Source: a virus. From it: 36,267 nucleotides of DNA. The stretch lies in IMG/VR virus record IMGVR_UViG_3300046170_000218, positions 1 through 36,267 of that record, one strand, 5' to 3'. Below are positions 12,669-34,876 of this stretch, piece after piece. A program made the position numbers and the translations under genes. The notes beneath the pieces are model-generated. The model did no database searches. It saw nothing but the letters and a program-made list of their open reading frames with translations, and was not told the DNA's origin. The stretch's first letter is position 1. Each line of letters opens with the position of its first letter.

Positions 12669-15600
12669 AAGACAACCTCAACAATCCTTTTAACGTCATG
12701 CGTCATAAAAATTGGGACAACGCTCCCCGAGAGGTTGTCGCTCAATATCTGATTGCATTAGGCTTACCAACGGCCGTCGCCTACGTCGTCGCTTTCGTTG
12801 GTTTGACGATGGTGGCGTCCTGGGTGACAAATGCTCTGATGCCAGACATTGAGGGTCAAAAGGGTCTTTTGACAAACACGCGAGACGCAGCGGCTCCGCA
12901 AGATATTGTTTATGGTGAGGTCCGGAAAGGTGGGTCGATTACATACCTGGAGGCAACCGGCGACGATAATGAATATTTACACATGATCCTGACGCTGGCT
13001 GGTCATGAGATCAGCTCGATTGATCAAATTTATTTAAACGATCAAGAGGTGACGATAAGCTCATCAACAAATTTTGTCACGACTAGCGATTGGGTTAATG
13101 ACAGTGAGCCCAAAGTTTACATCAGAAAGTTTTTGGGATCTCCAAATCAAAATATTTATTCAGATCTAAACGGCATCGCCAACGGTCCAGATTGGCAGGG
13201 AAAGGATGACGGAGACGATGTAAATTTCAGAGGCCAGGGCGTCGCTTGCTTGTATGTCCGGATGAAATATAACTCCGACGTTTTTGCGCAAGGTATTCCG
13301 CTGGTCACAGCTCGGATCAAAGGTAAAAAGGTTTTTGATCCGCGCGATGATACAACTGGATATTCTGCAAACGCGGCGCTCTGCATTAGGGATTACCTCG
13401 TCAGCAAATACGGTCTCGATGCTGATGGCGAAATCGATGACACTTCGTTTGAAACGGCGGCAAATGTCTGCGACGAGGATGTTTCTCTTGCGGCTGGCGG
13501 CACGGAAAAGCGCTATGAGATGAACGGCGCGACCAGTCTGTCGAGCACTCCCGGTAACATTCTCAATCGTATGATGACGACATGCGCTGGAAACTTATTC
13601 TGGGGTCAGGGGAAGTGGGTTTTAAAGGCTGGCGAATACAACCCCAGCGTCCAGACTTTTACGCTAAGCGATTTGCGCGGCGAGATAAACCTGGCGACCA
13701 AAGCGTCGCGTCGCGACAATTTCAACATCGTGCGAGGCAAGTTCGTCAGCGCAGATGATGACTATGTTCAGGCGGATTATCCAGAAATCAAAAGCTCAAC
13801 GTTTATCACGGAGGACAATGGTTTTGAGAATGCTCTTGATCTTGAGCTTCCTCTGACGACTTCGCACACGATGGCGCAACGCCTGGCAAAAATGACGCTT
13901 TACCGGGCGCGCGAACAGATGACGCTCCAGGCTAATTTTTCGATGAAAGCCTTTGACGTCCAGGTCGGCGATGTCGTCGCGCTCACGATCGAGCGTTACG
14001 GTTTCACGACGAAAGAGTTTGAAGTCATCGGATGGACTTTTCAAAACGATCCAGACGACGGTGGTCAGACTGTCGGACTTACGCTGAGAGAGACATCAGA
14101 GGCCGCGTTTTTGTGGAGCGCTGAGGAAACTGATTTAGCGGCAAACGACAGCACTTTGCCCTCGCTGGGCTACGGCTTAACAATCAGCAATCTCGCAATC
14201 AGCCAAGCGACGACGATTGCGTCCGACGGCACGTTTTTCGTAAGGGCGACGGCAACCTGGACAGCGGCATCGACGATTTATCTGCACCATTACAACGTCA
14301 GATGGAAACAGGACGGCGGTGAATATTCCGAAAGCACAACGTCCGGCCCGGCGTTCGAGTTCGGTCCTTTGCTTGACAGTGAGGTTTTTGAGTTCGAAGT
14401 CCAGCCTGTCACTGAGCAAAATATTCGCGGAACCTGGACGAGTGTTTCATTCACCGCTGAGGCCGATACGACTGCCCCTGGCGTTCCGACGAGTGTTTCA
14501 GCGACCGGCGGATTTCAGCAAGTCGTCGTCGATTGGAACAACCCGACCGACAATGATTTTGCGCGAGTTCAAATTTATCGAGCATCGAGCGACAGCTCAT
14601 CATCGGCGACGCTGATCGGTGAAACCGCCGGATCGTTTTTCACCGACAGCGGCTTAGCTGACAGCACACAATATTATTATTTTTTGAAAAGTCAGGATTT
14701 CACCGGGAACCTGTCAAGTTTCACAGCAAGCGTGAACGCGACGACCATTGATGAGATTGTGCTTGGGACATCGATCGTCGCAGTTTACGCGTCGAACAGC
14801 TCGGGCAGTAATAAGAGCTTTTCGGCTGGTTCGCTGGAATATATCCTTTATCATGAATATACAGGCGACCGCCCTGAGCTTTCTTCTATCAACGGAACTT
14901 GGATAAAATTTGTTGGCGAAGACGGGGCGCAGGGCGCGCAGGGTCCGCAAGGGGTGCAAGGCCAGCAAGGCCAGCAAGGTGAGCAAGGCGAGCAGGGCGA
15001 TCCCGGCTCTGACGGCGATCCTGGTGCGCGATATGCGACGGTCAGATATTACGCTGAAAGCTCAACGTCACCAAGCACCGCAAGCCTGACATCAAACGTA
15101 AGTTACAACTGGTCAACGGCTGTCGCGTCGACGTCATACGGCGTCTGGTCTAAGACCTCCCCGACGATCGCAGCAACAACGGCGGCGAACTTTTGGTTTG
15201 TGGATATCACGTTCAGAGACACTACTGGCGAGGCGTCGAGCTCGTCAGGTAACGCGGTCACAACCCCTGCTCGCTTGTTGAATTTCAATGGCCTCGTTAC
15301 GTTTACAAATACATCCGGAACGACGAGCCTCCAGGACGCGATCGATGACGACGCGACGACGATCGACGCGGGTAAGATTACGACCGGCACTCTTGACGCG
15401 ACAAACATCACAGTATCAAATTTGAGCGCGACGAGCATCCAGACCGGAGAGCTCAGCGCAGCTCGTTTAAATTTAAGCGGAACGCAGTTTATCAACAGCA
15501 GCGGCGCGCTGTCACTTAAGGACAGCGGCATCTCAACGAGTTTAGTCCAGAGCAACGCAATCACGAAAGAAAATCATTTTAGTCGGTCTTCTCAGGTGAT

Positions 15601-20811: not shown

Positions 20812-21496
20812 GGTTTTTTATTCTATCACCGATACAGTTGGTGGCTTGCCGCTCACCCTCAGCGAGCCCGTCAGCTTGCTCTCGGAATTGCGAGACAAAT
20901 ACAAAGGGACAAGCGCGGATCTCTATCTCAGATGCCCGAGCGCGATCGACGAGCTGAAAAACACTTTTGTTATGCGAAGCCCGACGGATCTTAAAATTAA
21001 ACACAGAGCCGCTGACATATCTATCGAGGCGGGATCAGAGCAATTCGCAAAAGATGTTTTCAATGATCTTTCAAGTGACGGGACGCTTTGCACGATCGGT
21101 CCAGGTTTTGCGTTTTTCTCGGAGCAACCTTTGAGGATGTTTCAAACCCCTGCATATTTACACAAGACACCATTTGACGACGTTGTTCTCACGCCTGGGA
21201 CATTCGATGTTGGAAAGTGGTTTCGCCCCATTGTCAGCGGCGTAATAAATCAGGCTCAATCGGACATTGTGATCAAACGGAATGATCCGCTTTATTATGT
21301 GCGCTTTGATACCGATGAAAAAATTAAGTTTCGCGCTTTTGAGTACAGCGAAAAAATCCATGAGTTTTTTGGCGATGCGATAAATTTGAAAATTAGCATC
21401 GACCGGCTCGCGCTGAAAGATCTTTATAAAATGTTTACTAGATCTAAACGACGGGAAGCTGTCCGGCGCGAGATCCTCGCGAACGCCTTGGAGTAA
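20804..21496 (+). CDS. Unknown protein of fibre cluster
   Basis: A 230-residue soluble protein I do not recognise. Visible features: L-Y-L-R-C-P-S-A-I-D-E-L-K-N-T-F-V near residues 42-58, a central F-F-S-E-Q-P-L-R-M-F-Q-T-P, F-D-V-G-K-W-F-R-P-I and I-V-I-K-R-N-D-P-L-Y-Y-V-R-F. The pattern of a compact alpha/beta enzyme-like protein, rather than a fibre, is suggestive. Without a family match, function is unknown. The start overlaps the preceding gene by 8 nt. Confidence 0.7.
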   Translation: MAEVFYSITDTVGGLPLTLSEPVSLLSELRDKYKGTSADLYLRCPSAIDELKNTFVMRSPTDLKIKHRAADISIEAGSEQFAKDVFNDLSSDGTLCTIGPGFAFFSEQPLRMFQTPAYLHKTPFDDVVLTPGTFDVGKWFRPIVSGVINQAQSDIVIKRNDPLYYVRFDTDEKIKFRAFEYSEKIHEFFGDAINLKISIDRLALKDLYKMFTRSKRREAVRREILANALE

Positions 21497-27807: not shown

Positions 27808-28504
27808 CAATCTGCCCCATTTTTTTGATGCGCTGTATCACACGATAAACCGCGCTTTGCGTCCAAGCATTGCCTTTTTGATTGCGCACTTTTTTGGCGT
27901 TTAGCTGGCGCGCTATATCTGATTGAGACACTCCTCTGTTATAGAGGACGCAAATTTCAGGCCAGATTGTCAATGCAAAATCGTCAGCCTTCTTTTGTTT
28001 CGCTGCGTTACCAGCATCGATGAGAGCCTTTTGATTGGGCGTCCCGAGCGCGTTGATTTGACGTCCCGAGCGCGTCGTATGAGGTTTCCCAGCCTCTAGT
28101 TTTTTGCGCACTCTGTCCAACCCTGCCTGAGCTCGCGCGACAATACGATCGCGCTGAACTTGCGCATTTGCACTCAAAACGTGAATACTGCCTTGGCTGA
28201 TGATTGGGTCATCCGCAACCTCTATTGCCACCCCCTGCACGGCTAAGGTTTCCAAGAACTCCAACGCAATCCATTGCCTTGATGCAAACCCATGTAAACT
28301 CGCAAGCGCAAACGTGGAGCTGTCAGATTTGCAATGCTCAACGCACTCTTGCAGCTCTTGCCGGTCAGAAAAGTCGCGCGTTGATTTGCCCTTTTCCACA
28401 AACCATTTGACTGCCCTGCCATCAGCCAAAGCATCGATTTGCCTCCTCTGACGATCCTGATGCGCCTCGTCAACGCCGTTGTAAATAAAGCCGTTAAGTT
28501 TCAT
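27800..28504 (-). CDS. Degenerate serine recombinase homologue
   Basis: A 234-residue protein with the architecture of a small serine recombinase: resolvase-like N-terminal domain, a long helix (Q-R-D-R-I-V-A-R-A-Q-A-G-L-D-R-V) and a C-terminal HTH (G-V-S-Q-S-D-I-A-R-Q-L-N, then W-T-Q-S-A-V-Y-R-V-I-Q). The catalytic motif Y-x-R-V-S-x-x-x-Q reads Y-N-G-V-D-E-A-H-Q, so both the Arg and the nucleophilic Ser are gone (G10, D12). The L-D-R-L-A-R motif is also lost (L-H-G-F-A-S). It cannot recombine DNA by the known mechanism and is more likely a DNA-binding regulator or structural protein. Start ATG 28504 has GGAGG upstream. Confidence 0.75.
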   Translation of the reverse strand: MKLNGFIYNGVDEAHQDRQRRQIDALADGRAVKWFVEKGKSTRDFSDRQELQECVEHCKSDSSTFALASLHGFASRQWIALEFLETLAVQGVAIEVADDPIISQGSIHVLSANAQVQRDRIVARAQAGLDRVRKKLEAGKPHTTRSGRQINALGTPNQKALIDAGNAAKQKKADDFALTIWPEICVLYNRGVSQSDIARQLNAKKVRNQKGNAWTQSAVYRVIQRIKKMGQIDG

Positions 28505-32496: not shown

Positions 32497-32907
32497 ATGG
32501 CACAACAGCGCGCAAATTTACCCTGGCATCTGTTTAAAGCCGAGCACAAGGCGGCCGGAAGATCGGTTTGTCTAGCTCTGGGTGCGGACGACGCGGACGC
32601 TTGGTTTACGCTGTCCAAAATACTTTTTGCGCGCCTAACGCCAGAGGAAAAAGTGGGGCTCGCGTTCGCAGCAATGCGCGCCCTGCCCTCTGAAAACCGC
32701 TGGGACATATTGTCAGCGTTGGGCGACGTCGAAATGCCGACTGGTTCACCGCTGCCACCCTTCGCCGAGGACATTGCTGCCGATGCTAACTGGTGGGCAT
32801 CGAGCGCGAGTAACGAGGAGCTGAGGGCGTATTTCCGAGCGATCATCAATTACATGAGCGACGACGACAAAAAAATCGCGTCGCGCAATTTACTGAGGAA
32901 AAAATGA
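32497..32907 (+). CDS. Unknown replication-module protein
   Basis: A 136-residue protein starting M-A-Q-Q-R-A-N-L-P-W-H-L-F-K, 3 nt after the SSB stop. Mainly helical with L-T-P-E-E-K-V-G-L-A-F-A-A-M-R and W-W-A-S-S-A-S-N-E-E-L-R-A-Y. No clear catalytic motif. Its position just before the ATPase gene, with a 4-nt overlap, suggests a replication partner such as a loader, but this is inference. Confidence 0.65.
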   Translation: MAQQRANLPWHLFKAEHKAAGRSVCLALGADDADAWFTLSKILFARLTPEEKVGLAFAAMRALPSENRWDILSALGDVEMPTGSPLPPFAEDIAADANWWASSASNEELRAYFRAIINYMSDDDKKIASRNLLRKK

Positions 32908-34055
32908 AAGTGGTCAAGGGTGGGGATTGGTTCGATCGATATGGTGATTTGATGCCGCAGTCGGACGCGGCGGTCGACGACAATCCATTATTTATAGAAG
33001 CGTCGACGCTCAAGGAGCGCGACATCGTGCCGATGGAGTGGCTGATCGGAAGCCTAATCCCGGCCAATACAGTCACGCTTCTGAGCGGCGACGGCGGAAC
33101 AGGAAAGTCGCTCCTGGCGCTAAACCTAGCAATCAGCGTCGCGTCAGGCGGAAAGCTGCCCTGGCTTAACATGAAGCCGGAGCAAGGTCCGGCGCTCTAC
33201 ATTGGAGCCGAGGACGACATCAACGAAATGCATCGGCGGATAAACGATATGATCTGGTTGCGTCAGGGCGTTACCTGGGACGACCTAGACGATCTTCATT
33301 TGGCGAGCTTAGCCTCCAGAGACGCACTCCTAGCATCACTGGACCCGCGAACTGGTATTTTGACGCCATCCGCCCTCTGGGCAAAAATTTTGACAAAGAT
33401 TGAGGCGGAACAACCGCGCATCGTGATCCTCGACACCTTGGCGGATCTCTATCCAGGGAACGAGAACGATCGAGCTCAGGCGCGTCAGTTTATCGGTCAG
33501 CTCAGAAAAGCCGCTGTCGATTTTCAAACGACCGTCGTCCTTTTGTCTCACCCCTCGCTTAGCGGGATGGCAAGCGGAACCGGAACGTCAGGAAACACCG
33601 CTTGGAACAACTCAGTCAGATCTCGGCTCTACATGCAAAGGGTGAAAGATGACGGCTACGAGGCCGACAAATCAGCGCGCAAACTGACAGTCATGAAATC
33701 GAATTACGGCGAAACCGGAACTGAGATTTTGATGAACTACGACAGCGGCTATTTTGTGGCGCAAAAGGTCGAGGACAGTCTCGACAAGCAAGCGATCGAG
33801 GCAAAGGCTGAGCGCGTGTTTCTGTCGCTTCTCGATGATTTCACAAGCGCTGGGATGTTTCTCAGCCCTGCCCCGTCGGCGCAGAACGGCGCAGCGGTTA
33901 AATTTGCAAACTCTAACGGTCATCAAGGCATCACGAAAAAGCAATTCCGAGCGGCTCAGGATCGGCTCCAGCTCGCGGGTAAAATCTGGATCGGAACGCG
34001 CGGCCCAGCGTCCAGGCAACAGCAATATATCGTCAAAGGGAGCAAGCCGGAATGA
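32904..34055 (+). CDS. RepA-like hexameric ATPase/helicase
   Basis: A 383-residue AAA_25/RecA-fold ATPase. It has Walker A G-D-G-G-T-G-K-S (residues 62-69) and Walker B I-V-I-L-D-T (172-177). A later motif, H-P-S-L-S-G-M-A-S-G-T-G-T-S-G-N-T, precedes W-N-N-S-V-R-S-R-L-Y; this layout matches RepA/RSF1010-like replicative helicases. The C-terminal 110 residues add a winged-helix-like region. A phased repeat array begins 3 nt after its stop, consistent with an origin that this protein or a neighbour recognises. Confidence 0.85.
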   Translation: MKVVKGGDWFDRYGDLMPQSDAAVDDNPLFIEASTLKERDIVPMEWLIGSLIPANTVTLLSGDGGTGKSLLALNLAISVASGGKLPWLNMKPEQGPALYIGAEDDINEMHRRINDMIWLRQGVTWDDLDDLHLASLASRDALLASLDPRTGILTPSALWAKILTKIEAEQPRIVILDTLADLYPGNENDRAQARQFIGQLRKAAVDFQTTVVLLSHPSLSGMASGTGTSGNTAWNNSVRSRLYMQRVKDDGYEADKSARKLTVMKSNYGETGTEILMNYDSGYFVAQKVEDSLDKQAIEAKAERVFLSLLDDFTSAGMFLSPAPSAQNGAAVKFANSNGHQGITKKQFRAAQDRLQLAGKIWIGTRGPASRQQQYIVKGSKPE

Positions 34056-34057
34056 CC

Positions 34058-34157
34058 TTCAAACCTTGTTCAAACCCCTTCAAACCCCCTACAAACCCCC
34101 TTCAAACCTGGGGTACAAACCCCTTTCAAACCTTATTCAAACCCCCTTCAAACCCCC
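34058..34157 (+). repeat. Iteron-like array, nine TTCAAACC-type repeats (candidate origin)
   Basis: Nine copies of T[TA]CAAACC(CCC) start at 34058, 34069, 34079, 34090, 34101, 34114, 34125, 34136 and 34147. Spacing is 10-13 bp, mostly 11, so repeats share one DNA face. The period is not a multiple of three, so coding cannot explain it. The sequence is C-rich and almost G-free on the plus strand except for the central hairpin (34110-34123). A rut-like Rho site is an alternative reading. Confidence 0.75.
34110..34123 (+). repeat. Central hairpin of the iteron array
   Basis: GGGGT/ACCCC inverted repeat with ACAA loop between the fifth and seventh repeats, its right arm being part of the sixth repeat. 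It may extrude as a cruciform or nick site at the origin. Confidence 0.45.
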
Positions 34158-34183
34158 TACACACACACACCCCTTATACCCCT

Positions 34184-34203
34184 AGAGGTTTGAACCTCTT
34201 TTT
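34184..34203 (+). terminator. Terminator after the iteron array
   Basis: AGAGGTT / AACCTCT inverted repeat followed by TTTTT, separating the helicase transcript from the next gene. The stem contains the repeat core in inverse orientation (GGTTTGAA), so it may also serve as an inverted iteron. Confidence 0.7.
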
Positions 34204-34224: not shown

Positions 34225-34548
34225 ATGAAAGAGTTGAAAGACGTCGTCGAGCGGTTACGCGCGCTCGGCTTTGAGGCAAAAATAAACACGACAGAGGCAA
34301 CCCAACCAGCATCGCCAGGATCATCCCTAGATTATGCTGAGCTTCCGGAGAAAGAGTTTCGCCGGGTCGTCAGCCGGATCGATGACATAAACGTCCTCGC
34401 TGGCATGGCTAACAGGAGAAAACTCCTGAGCGCTCCCTGGTTGAAAAAATATTCGCCGATCCAACGGTCGATAATTATGGAGCGCAAGTTTGCGCTCGAG
34501 CAGAAAGACAAGGCAAATGTCACCAGAGGACGAAAAAAAACTCGGTAG
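34225..34548 (+). CDS. Unknown small basic protein
   Basis: A 107-residue protein with an N-terminal helix (K-E-L-K-D-V-V-E-R-L-R-A-L-G-F), a central E-K-E-F-R-R-V-V-S-R-I-D-D-I-N and a Lys/Arg-rich end (G-R-K-K-T-R). AGAGGAA precedes the ATG. It sits directly after the putative origin and could bind DNA. No family recognised. Confidence 0.6.
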   Translation: MKELKDVVERLRALGFEAKINTTEATQPASPGSSLDYAELPEKEFRRVVSRIDDINVLAGMANRRKLLSAPWLKKYSPIQRSIIMERKFALEQKDKANVTRGRKKTR

Positions 34549-34876
34549 ATGTTGGATCGCGAAAGAGCGTGAATGGCATCGCAAAGGATTGCGCCCAAAA
34601 TTGCCCGGCGACGTTCGCGCTGGACGCGATGATCCAAGCTATTTGATCAGCTCATTTAAGGACGTTTATGGCTACATCTTAAGGAGGCCCGGTTGCACCT
34701 ATCACGATCTTAAAAACGATCTGTCGTTATCGTCGCCGGTCATTATCAACAACATCGCTGTTTTGAAAAAGCGCGGGATTGTCACCGGCAAAGCGATCGG
34801 CTCAAGGCGAGTAATGAAGTTCTACATTAAAAATAAAATAAACGTTGGGGATCTGGTAAATGGAAAAAAAGACTAA
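34517..34876 (+). CDS. Winged-helix DNA-binding protein
   Basis: A 119-residue protein starting M-S-P-E-D-E-K-K-L-G at 34517 (AAGGCAA upstream). A MarR/ArsR-like winged helix is visible at about residues 45-100: V-Y-G-Y-I-L-R-R-P-G-C-T-Y-H-D-L, then L-S-L-S-S-P-V-I-I-N-N-I-A-V-L-K-K-R-G-I and a wing. Probably a late or replication regulator. It overlaps the gene before and the gene after. Confidence 0.7.
   Translation: MSPEDEKKLGRCWIAKEREWHRKGLRPKLPGDVRAGRDDPSYLISSFKDVYGYILRRPGCTYHDLKNDLSLSSPVIINNIAVLKKRGIVTGKAIGSRRVMKFYIKNKINVGDLVNGKKD

Follow-up and report, generated by a model that had tools for sequence, protein, structure and literature searches.

Background

The oriV of the IncQ plasmid RSF1010 contains iterons and inverted repeats, and the iterons, of about 20 bp, are bound by a separate protein, RepC. 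In phage P4, the helicase alpha itself carries a C-terminal winged-helix domain that binds the origin, where the repeats are short (the type I iterons of ori and crr). Recognition of repeats situated behind the reader's own gene is described for SaPI Rep and SCCmec Cch2, whose helicases belong to the DUF927 or D5/Primase_Cterm type (PMC7581432). For ORF904 of pRN1, it is proposed that a winged helix binds downstream of its own gene, at an origin whose form is conserved while its sequence is poorly conserved (PMC4234260).

Here we describe a repeat element at positions 34058-34199 of a 36,267-bp stretch of viral DNA, which was analysed in full and is referred to as the window. The element directly follows the gene for a RepA-like ATPase and is probably the replication origin of a siphophage, which would be recognised by the product of the preceding gene, such that the helicase would recruit itself. 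A likeness to SaPI Rep and Cch2 is suggested by an array positioned behind a helicase gene, the unit of which covaries with the C-terminal wing of the encoded protein; binding of the array by this C-terminal domain is predicted. By contrast, the ATPase here is of the RecA-fold, RepA-like AAA_25 (PF13481) type rather than DUF927 or D5/Primase_Cterm, the units are spaced by 11 bp and accompanied by a conserved C-run box, specificity apparently resides in the wing, and the hosts are mainly alphaproteobacteria. By analogy, the window ATPase may work in the manner of SaPI Rep while standing outside the SaPI Rep family.

The RepA-type RecA-fold helicase domain is shared with RSF1010, by both sequence and predicted fold. 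However, the layout of the origin is different, and the window ORFs scanned with Pfam and PHROGs (not every small ORF being among them) yielded nothing recognisable as RepC- or RepB'-like. The comparison with pRN1 is one of form: in both cases a winged helix is proposed to read DNA downstream of its own gene, at an origin that keeps its form and not its sequence, but pRN1 has a prim/pol-SF3 helicase and a stem-loop of approximately 100 nt, whereas an array of 11-bp direct repeats is present here. P4 alpha differs in its helicase family, its primase fusion and its repeat layout.

The ATPase and other genes of the window

The window encodes terminase, portal, head, tape-measure, tail-fibre, endolysin and serine-recombinase-like proteins. 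Other tandem repeats occur within its genes: a 22-bp unit (TTGATTGGACGTCCCGAGCGCG) is found twice in tandem at 28031-28075, inside the reverse-strand serine-recombinase-like gene, and 9-bp repeats lie at 14947-15000 within the tail-fibre gene, which is collagen-like by PHROGs.

The ATPase, of 383 aa, is encoded on the forward strand (32904..34055) and matches the Pfam family AAA_25 (PF13481, E 5.7e-36). RSF1010 RepA is both its sole clear sequence match in the PDB by phmmer (1g8y, E 3.7e-13) and the top PDB match found by Foldseek (1nlf, E 3.3e-16) with its AlphaFold model, which has a mean pLDDT of 89.7. A winged helix is predicted at the C-terminus (residues 292-378, encoded by 33777..34037), in which helices at residues 292-315, 330-336 and 345-357 precede strands at 361-366 and 373-378. 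This order of an HHH core followed by a beta-hairpin wing, as in winged-helix DNA-binding domains, is predicted in the AlphaFold models of both the full protein and the domain alone. Winged-helix structures were matched by VIA-align of the domain, the first being the SAMD1-DNA complex 6lui (Z 8.7 over 71 residues, rmsd 2.3); the similarities are modest (Z 7-9), and Foldseek alone returned no match below E 0.001 for this domain. RSF1010 RepA, at 279 aa in the PDB, is too short to include a C-terminal winged helix. The window protein is predicted to be an RSF1010-RepA-like replicative helicase to which a C-terminal DNA-binding domain has been added, and is putatively hexameric by homology.

Exonuclease VIII-like and Gp2.5-like proteins are encoded next to the ATPase. 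Among the window ORFs scanned with PHROGs, no further helicase, primase or polymerase was recognised, the exception being a DNA methyltransferase with an additional match to a primase-methyltransferase family. None of ten replication-region proteins has a Pfam match to a dual winged-helix initiator of the Rep_3/RepE kind, which sets the locus apart from Rep_3 iteron plasmids. Downstream of the ATPase gene, positions 34490-34876 encode a protein of 128 aa with a weak MarR-type match, a possible DNA-binding player that is also present in both close relatives (69-71% identity).

The repeat array and its surroundings

Two bases (CC) separate the stop codon of the ATPase gene (34053-34055) from the first of nine TWCAAACC units on the forward strand (34058..34157). 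The units start at 34058, 34069, 34079, 34090, 34101, 34114, 34125, 34136 and 34147, the last unit ending at 34154, in steps of 11, 10, 11, 11, 13, 11, 11 and 11 bp, and the same steps are found at two related loci (L007 and L008). Tandem Repeats Finder reports the same array with a period of 11 and a score of 97. As each of 5000 dinucleotide shuffles of the 169-bp intergenic sequence contained at most two TWCAAACC units, the nine repeats at about 11 bp reported by the first-pass annotation are confirmed. Other occurrences of the unit in the window are at 21141 on the forward strand and at 34187 and 18111 on the reverse strand, that at 34187 being an inverted copy within a hairpin. The placement of the repeats on one helical face by the same annotation holds approximately: a period of 11.2 bp fits best, with a mean resultant of 0.93 where 10.5 bp gives 0.41, hence the units lie near but not exactly on one face, with a drift of about 25 degrees per unit.

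On the 3' side, the array is followed by a CA tract, the sequence CCCCTTATACCCC (34170..34182, forward strand) and the hairpin AGAGGTTTGAACCTCT (34184..34199, forward strand), within which the inverted iteron copy is GGTTTGAA (34187-34194). The CCCCTTATACCCC box, a possible unwinding element, is the best-conserved part of the element and was absent from the first-pass annotation. A central GGGGT-ACAA-ACCCC hairpin, to which that annotation gave prominence, does occur in the window. The two relatives whose ATPases are 91% identical have GGGGTTCAAACCTT at this place, and the hairpin is thus not conserved. When applied to the window, the stem finder chose another stem that overlaps the 34184-34199 hairpin.

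Conservation of the element among relatives

Relatives of the ATPase were collected by profile searches, which yielded 44 bacterial-genome loci, almost all of them alphaproteobacterial as judged from record titles, and, from viral contigs, the best 80 of 211 confirmed matches. Four loci were left out before the main counts, these being truncated (L062), at 22% identity (L065), on the same contig as another locus (L066, with L007) or without a stop codon (L117). Removal of 21 near-duplicates with more than 90% identity reduced 125 proteins to 104, and the omission of three with too little downstream DNA (L027, L081 and L111) left 101 non-redundant loci. Among the earliest matches to the ATPase, the analysis covered five phage records out of seven and a single plasmid record out of two. 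Loci from Azospirillum (L018) and Wolbachia WO (L015 and L021) were kept as distant members, in which arrays are weak or absent; no array was seen by eye in L019 or L020, and the record of L014 stops within the gene. An exact search of viral contigs for three TTCAAACC units in step found five stretches, two of which are the close relatives.

The other three stretches found by the exact search (L011, L012 and L013) are arrays that lie in unrelated contexts, and were therefore set aside. Two of these carry unrelated 11-bp arrays (TTCAAACCGGA; L011 2014-2053 and L012 9100-9150) beside further repeats (GTCCGATTT), and no ATPase homologue was noticed nearby. Many of the contigs numbered L070-L144 are 8-18 kb in size, and many carriers are short records holding an integrase, the ATPase and an array; they may be satellites of phages or pieces of prophages and not complete prophages. 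Integrase-like ORFs are found upstream in 28 of the 101 loci and HNH-like ORFs downstream in 23.

An in-phase array, with at least three steps of 10-12 bp, is present around the stop codon at 80 of the 101 loci, compared with two of 101 control stretches; eight loci have fewer than two in-phase steps. The first-pass annotation had tied its origin reading to conservation of phase in relatives, and the phase is indeed kept: 285 of 560 spacings between successive best 7-mers downstream of the gene measure 10-12 bp, the corresponding counts being 21 of 261 within the gene and 26 of 311 after dinucleotide shuffling of the downstream DNA. The mean autocorrelation z at lag 11 is correspondingly 2.11 downstream (101 loci), -0.07 at the gene end (101 loci) and -0.09 at +600 (99 loci). 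The per-locus lag test is weaker than the spacing test, a z of 3 at lags 10-12 being reached at 34 of the 101 loci. While this step stays, the sequence of the unit varies between relatives, in which TTCCAACC, TTCATCCC, GTGCAACC, TTCGCGCC (the unit of L067), TTCCACCG, GCGATCTC, CGGCGAC and others are found.

The box is more constant. A C3+/AT/C3+ sequence occurs on the gene strand in 63 of the 101 relatives and in none of 101 in-gene control stretches of 300 bp; on the opposite strand, a C-run/AT/C-run box is present in three relatives (clear in L037, weak in L060 and L015) against one control. Other palindromes take the place of the box in some relatives. Across 62 loci, 67 inverted units were counted on the right of the box, where shuffled units give 13.4, and 10 on its left, and the longest stems past the box average 7.4 bp, compared with 5.2 bp in shuffles. 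The first-pass annotation had described an inverted core within a terminator stem at 34184-34199. The inverted unit is real and conserved in kind; a T-rich, terminator-like tail, however, follows the longest stem in just one of 63 relatives, which implies that the stems past the box are not generally intrinsic terminators.

The position of the element is also subject to variation. In L037 (3601-3800), the whole element of hairpin, box and array runs in the opposite orientation to the ATPase gene, which makes this locus a natural test of orientation, and in L144 the array lies at about +785 bp downstream. In five sphingomonad loci (L055, L057, L058, L061 and L063), as well as in L108, the reading frame itself contains the array within its 3' part; the proteins encoded by these in-frame arrays end in a repetitive tail, and short palindromes come next in the sphingomonads, for example TACTACGTA or CTAAAG-centred hairpins. 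In eight loci (L046, L047, L051, L052, L053, L064, L018 and L135), the array is split by a near-constant TAAGTCATTGAAATCATT-like stretch, which occurs instead of or besides the box and may be another kind of opening element. As a family-wide part, the TTGA[AT]-type element that lies between split arrays (L046, L047, L051-L053, L064 and others) is not established, since the loose pattern used is present at 20 of 101 loci and in 12 of 101 control stretches. The element as a whole is widespread and apparently undescribed, no description of these arrays having been found in full-text searches of open-licence papers.

Covariation of the repeat unit with the wing

Association between unit and protein sequence was studied at the 56 of the 101 loci with at least five unit copies and three 10-12 bp steps. 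Unit distance correlates with distance over residues 365-374 (Spearman 0.63), whereas for 10-residue windows before residue 360 the values range from -0.01 to 0.36. In partial Mantel tests, the unit is associated with the C-terminus (residues 337-382) given the ATPase (r 0.388, p 0.001), and not with the ATPase given the C-terminus (residues 290-382; r 0.047, p 0.24). The strongest associations after correction for the ATPase are at columns 368, 370 and 373 of the 328 compared, which lie in or next to the wing (residues 367-374, encoded by 34002..34025 on the forward strand), the predicted specificity segment. Third codon positions of codons 364-378 are almost uncorrelated with the unit (0.09), which argues against simple linkage.

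A similar pattern is evident in pairs of loci with an ATPase identity of at least 0.62 (n = 280, of which 84 of middling similarity are omitted from the contrast). The 132 pairs with the same unit have a wing identity of 0.63 and a helix-3 identity of 0.58, while in the 64 pairs with different units these values are 0.21 and 0.53, respectively. Residue 373 is T, V or A at every one of the ten loci whose units read [CG]ATC[TC]C, and at four of the 46 other loci. On a tree of the ATPase domain, the unit class takes 16 changes, and ATC units agree with residue 373 in about 4.9 of five independent pairs; the median sign-test p of 0.0625 reflects that such binary trait tests comprise three or five pairs, too few for significance to be within reach.

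This covariation with the C-terminal winged helix is what would be expected of an ATPase that reads the iterons. Within 2.6 kb, no gene family is common to more than 35 of the 101 loci, save that of the ATPase itself and two groups of ORFs on the opposite strand (at 94 and 91 loci), which are presumed, as groups, to be shadows of the ATPase gene. It is very probably the ATPase's own C-terminal tail that reads the array, as judged from these sequence comparisons.

An apparent exchange between two closely related loci

The loci L071 and L086 have TTCCAACC and TTCATCCC units, respectively, and ATPase domains that are 97% identical. In 50-bp windows, their identity is 0.82-1.00 until approximately 200 bp before the stop codon, and drops to 0.31 in the final 50 bp before the gene ends; downstream, it is again 0.88-1.00 from +100 to +450, such that the box and the sequence beyond it match. 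The two loci appear to differ almost only in the winged helix and the array, jointly swapped between flanks that match closely. L086 is a 4.3-kb metagenomic contig, and this single case of a joint swap may be an assembly chimera. In the wider set, 95 of the 177 pairs with an ATPase identity of at least 0.80 have a wing identity below 0.5, and the listed pairs of this kind have different arrays, or belong to the same gene family with other units.

GC skew and the position of the origin

The detrended cumulative GC skew of the window, a check suggested by the first-pass annotation, has its minimum at 34465, close to the element, and its maximum at 15060, nearly opposite on a circle. The low-skew region is broad, with 29.5-36.2 kb lying within 10% of the range. 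The skew was also studied, after removal of coding-strand bias, in 14 of 18 long records (all but G013-G016), which with the window make a set of 15. With the gene end serving as a proxy for the array, and several of the records probably being incomplete, the distance to the skew minimum is at most 10% of half a genome in seven of the 15 (1.5 expected, p 0.0003) and at most 25% in ten, but exceeds half of a half-genome in five. The minimum is thus near the element in the window and near the gene end in about half of the set. Six of the records (G004, G007, G009, G010, G017 and G020) were analysed without their last bases beyond 40 or 60 kb, and in G017, G019 and G020 the ATPase match lacks the C-terminal part, any array there being putative. 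The proximity of the skew minimum to the gene end in part of the records provides independent but indirect support for an origin.

Alternative functions of the array

The covariation points to the probable reader of the array, not to its purpose, and would be predicted identically by an autoregulatory operator or roadblock, at which the winged helix of the ATPase would limit read-through or control the next genes with no role in replication. The window array does sit between the ATPase gene and the next gene, with a hairpin after it. Nevertheless, this function is unlikely: a search around the window array found no promoter of sigma-70-like type, and an origin is a better fit to arrays that lie behind rather than before the gene, to the lack of a commonly shared downstream gene family, to the GC-skew minimum and to the inverted element of L037. 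Autoregulatory and origin roles could also both be served together. A partition site is considerably less probable again. Direct repeats of 11 bp are typical of R1 parC too, and a centromere of the ParR-system kind would have such helically spaced direct repeats, but the putative reader here is a predicted winged helix fused to a RepA-like, RecA-fold ATPase, whereas in such systems a ribbon-helix-helix adaptor accompanies ParM or ParA. PHROGs scans of window ORFs revealed no partner of the actin-like or tubulin-like kind, and many relatives are on bacterial genome contigs, where a chromosomal prophage would have no need of partition.

That the element acts as RNA, with a C-rich Rho-loading site ahead of a terminator, can be almost wholly discounted. 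This alternative, raised by the first-pass annotation, fits the composition of the window array (43% C, 5% G) and the T-run that follows the 34184-34199 hairpin. The C-rich, G-poor strand expected of a rut site is not family-wide, however, as the C/G ratio is below 1.2 in seven of 56 arrays and the element is inverted in L037; the rarity of T-rich tails argues in the same direction, and Rho loading predicts neither covariation with a protein domain, at the wing, nor a conserved 11-bp step. Equally improbable is neutral expansion by slippage behind the gene, with the covariation an appearance created by linkage. No part of the gene is closer to the array than the C-terminus, and both could be inherited as one block, but the step is conserved while the unit changes, the correlation jumps at residues 360-374 without a gradual rise, third codon positions show a near-zero correlation, and on separate branches one unit class is found together with related substitutions. 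The iteron-type replication origin proposed by the first-pass annotation is supported by the phase kept among relatives, the covariation of the unit with the winged helix and the nearby skew minimum, and from these we infer its function.

Proposed mechanism and implications

In the mechanism that we propose for such an origin, the winged helix would bind the 11-bp-spaced units, chiefly through the wing, and several ATPase subunits gathered along the array would assemble into a hexamer. The CCCC-TTATA-CCCC box would be the site of strand opening and helicase loading, and the inverted unit or units and hairpin past it may bound the opened stretch or take part in lagging-strand priming.

A broader and more tentative suggestion, which we consider possible but somewhat doubtful, is that the temperate phages and prophages of alphaproteobacteria possess a cassette for origin specificity that can be exchanged, consisting of the winged-helix end of the ATPase and the iteron array, in which a wing-to-iteron code at residues 368-374 would switch the identity of the origin while keeping the motor, the box and the rest of the genome. 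The pressure behind such switching is perhaps the presence of co-resident prophages or satellites that might otherwise share or sabotage the origin.

The element and the ATPase are the likely origin and initiator of many alphaproteobacterial phages and prophages. The use of a SaPI-like logic with an unrelated, RecA-type helicase suggests convergence. The dozens of natural variants provide material for reading a winged-helix code that would lie in the wing and not in the recognition helix, and the joint change of unit and wing may offer a means to predict which prophages have a common origin of replication.
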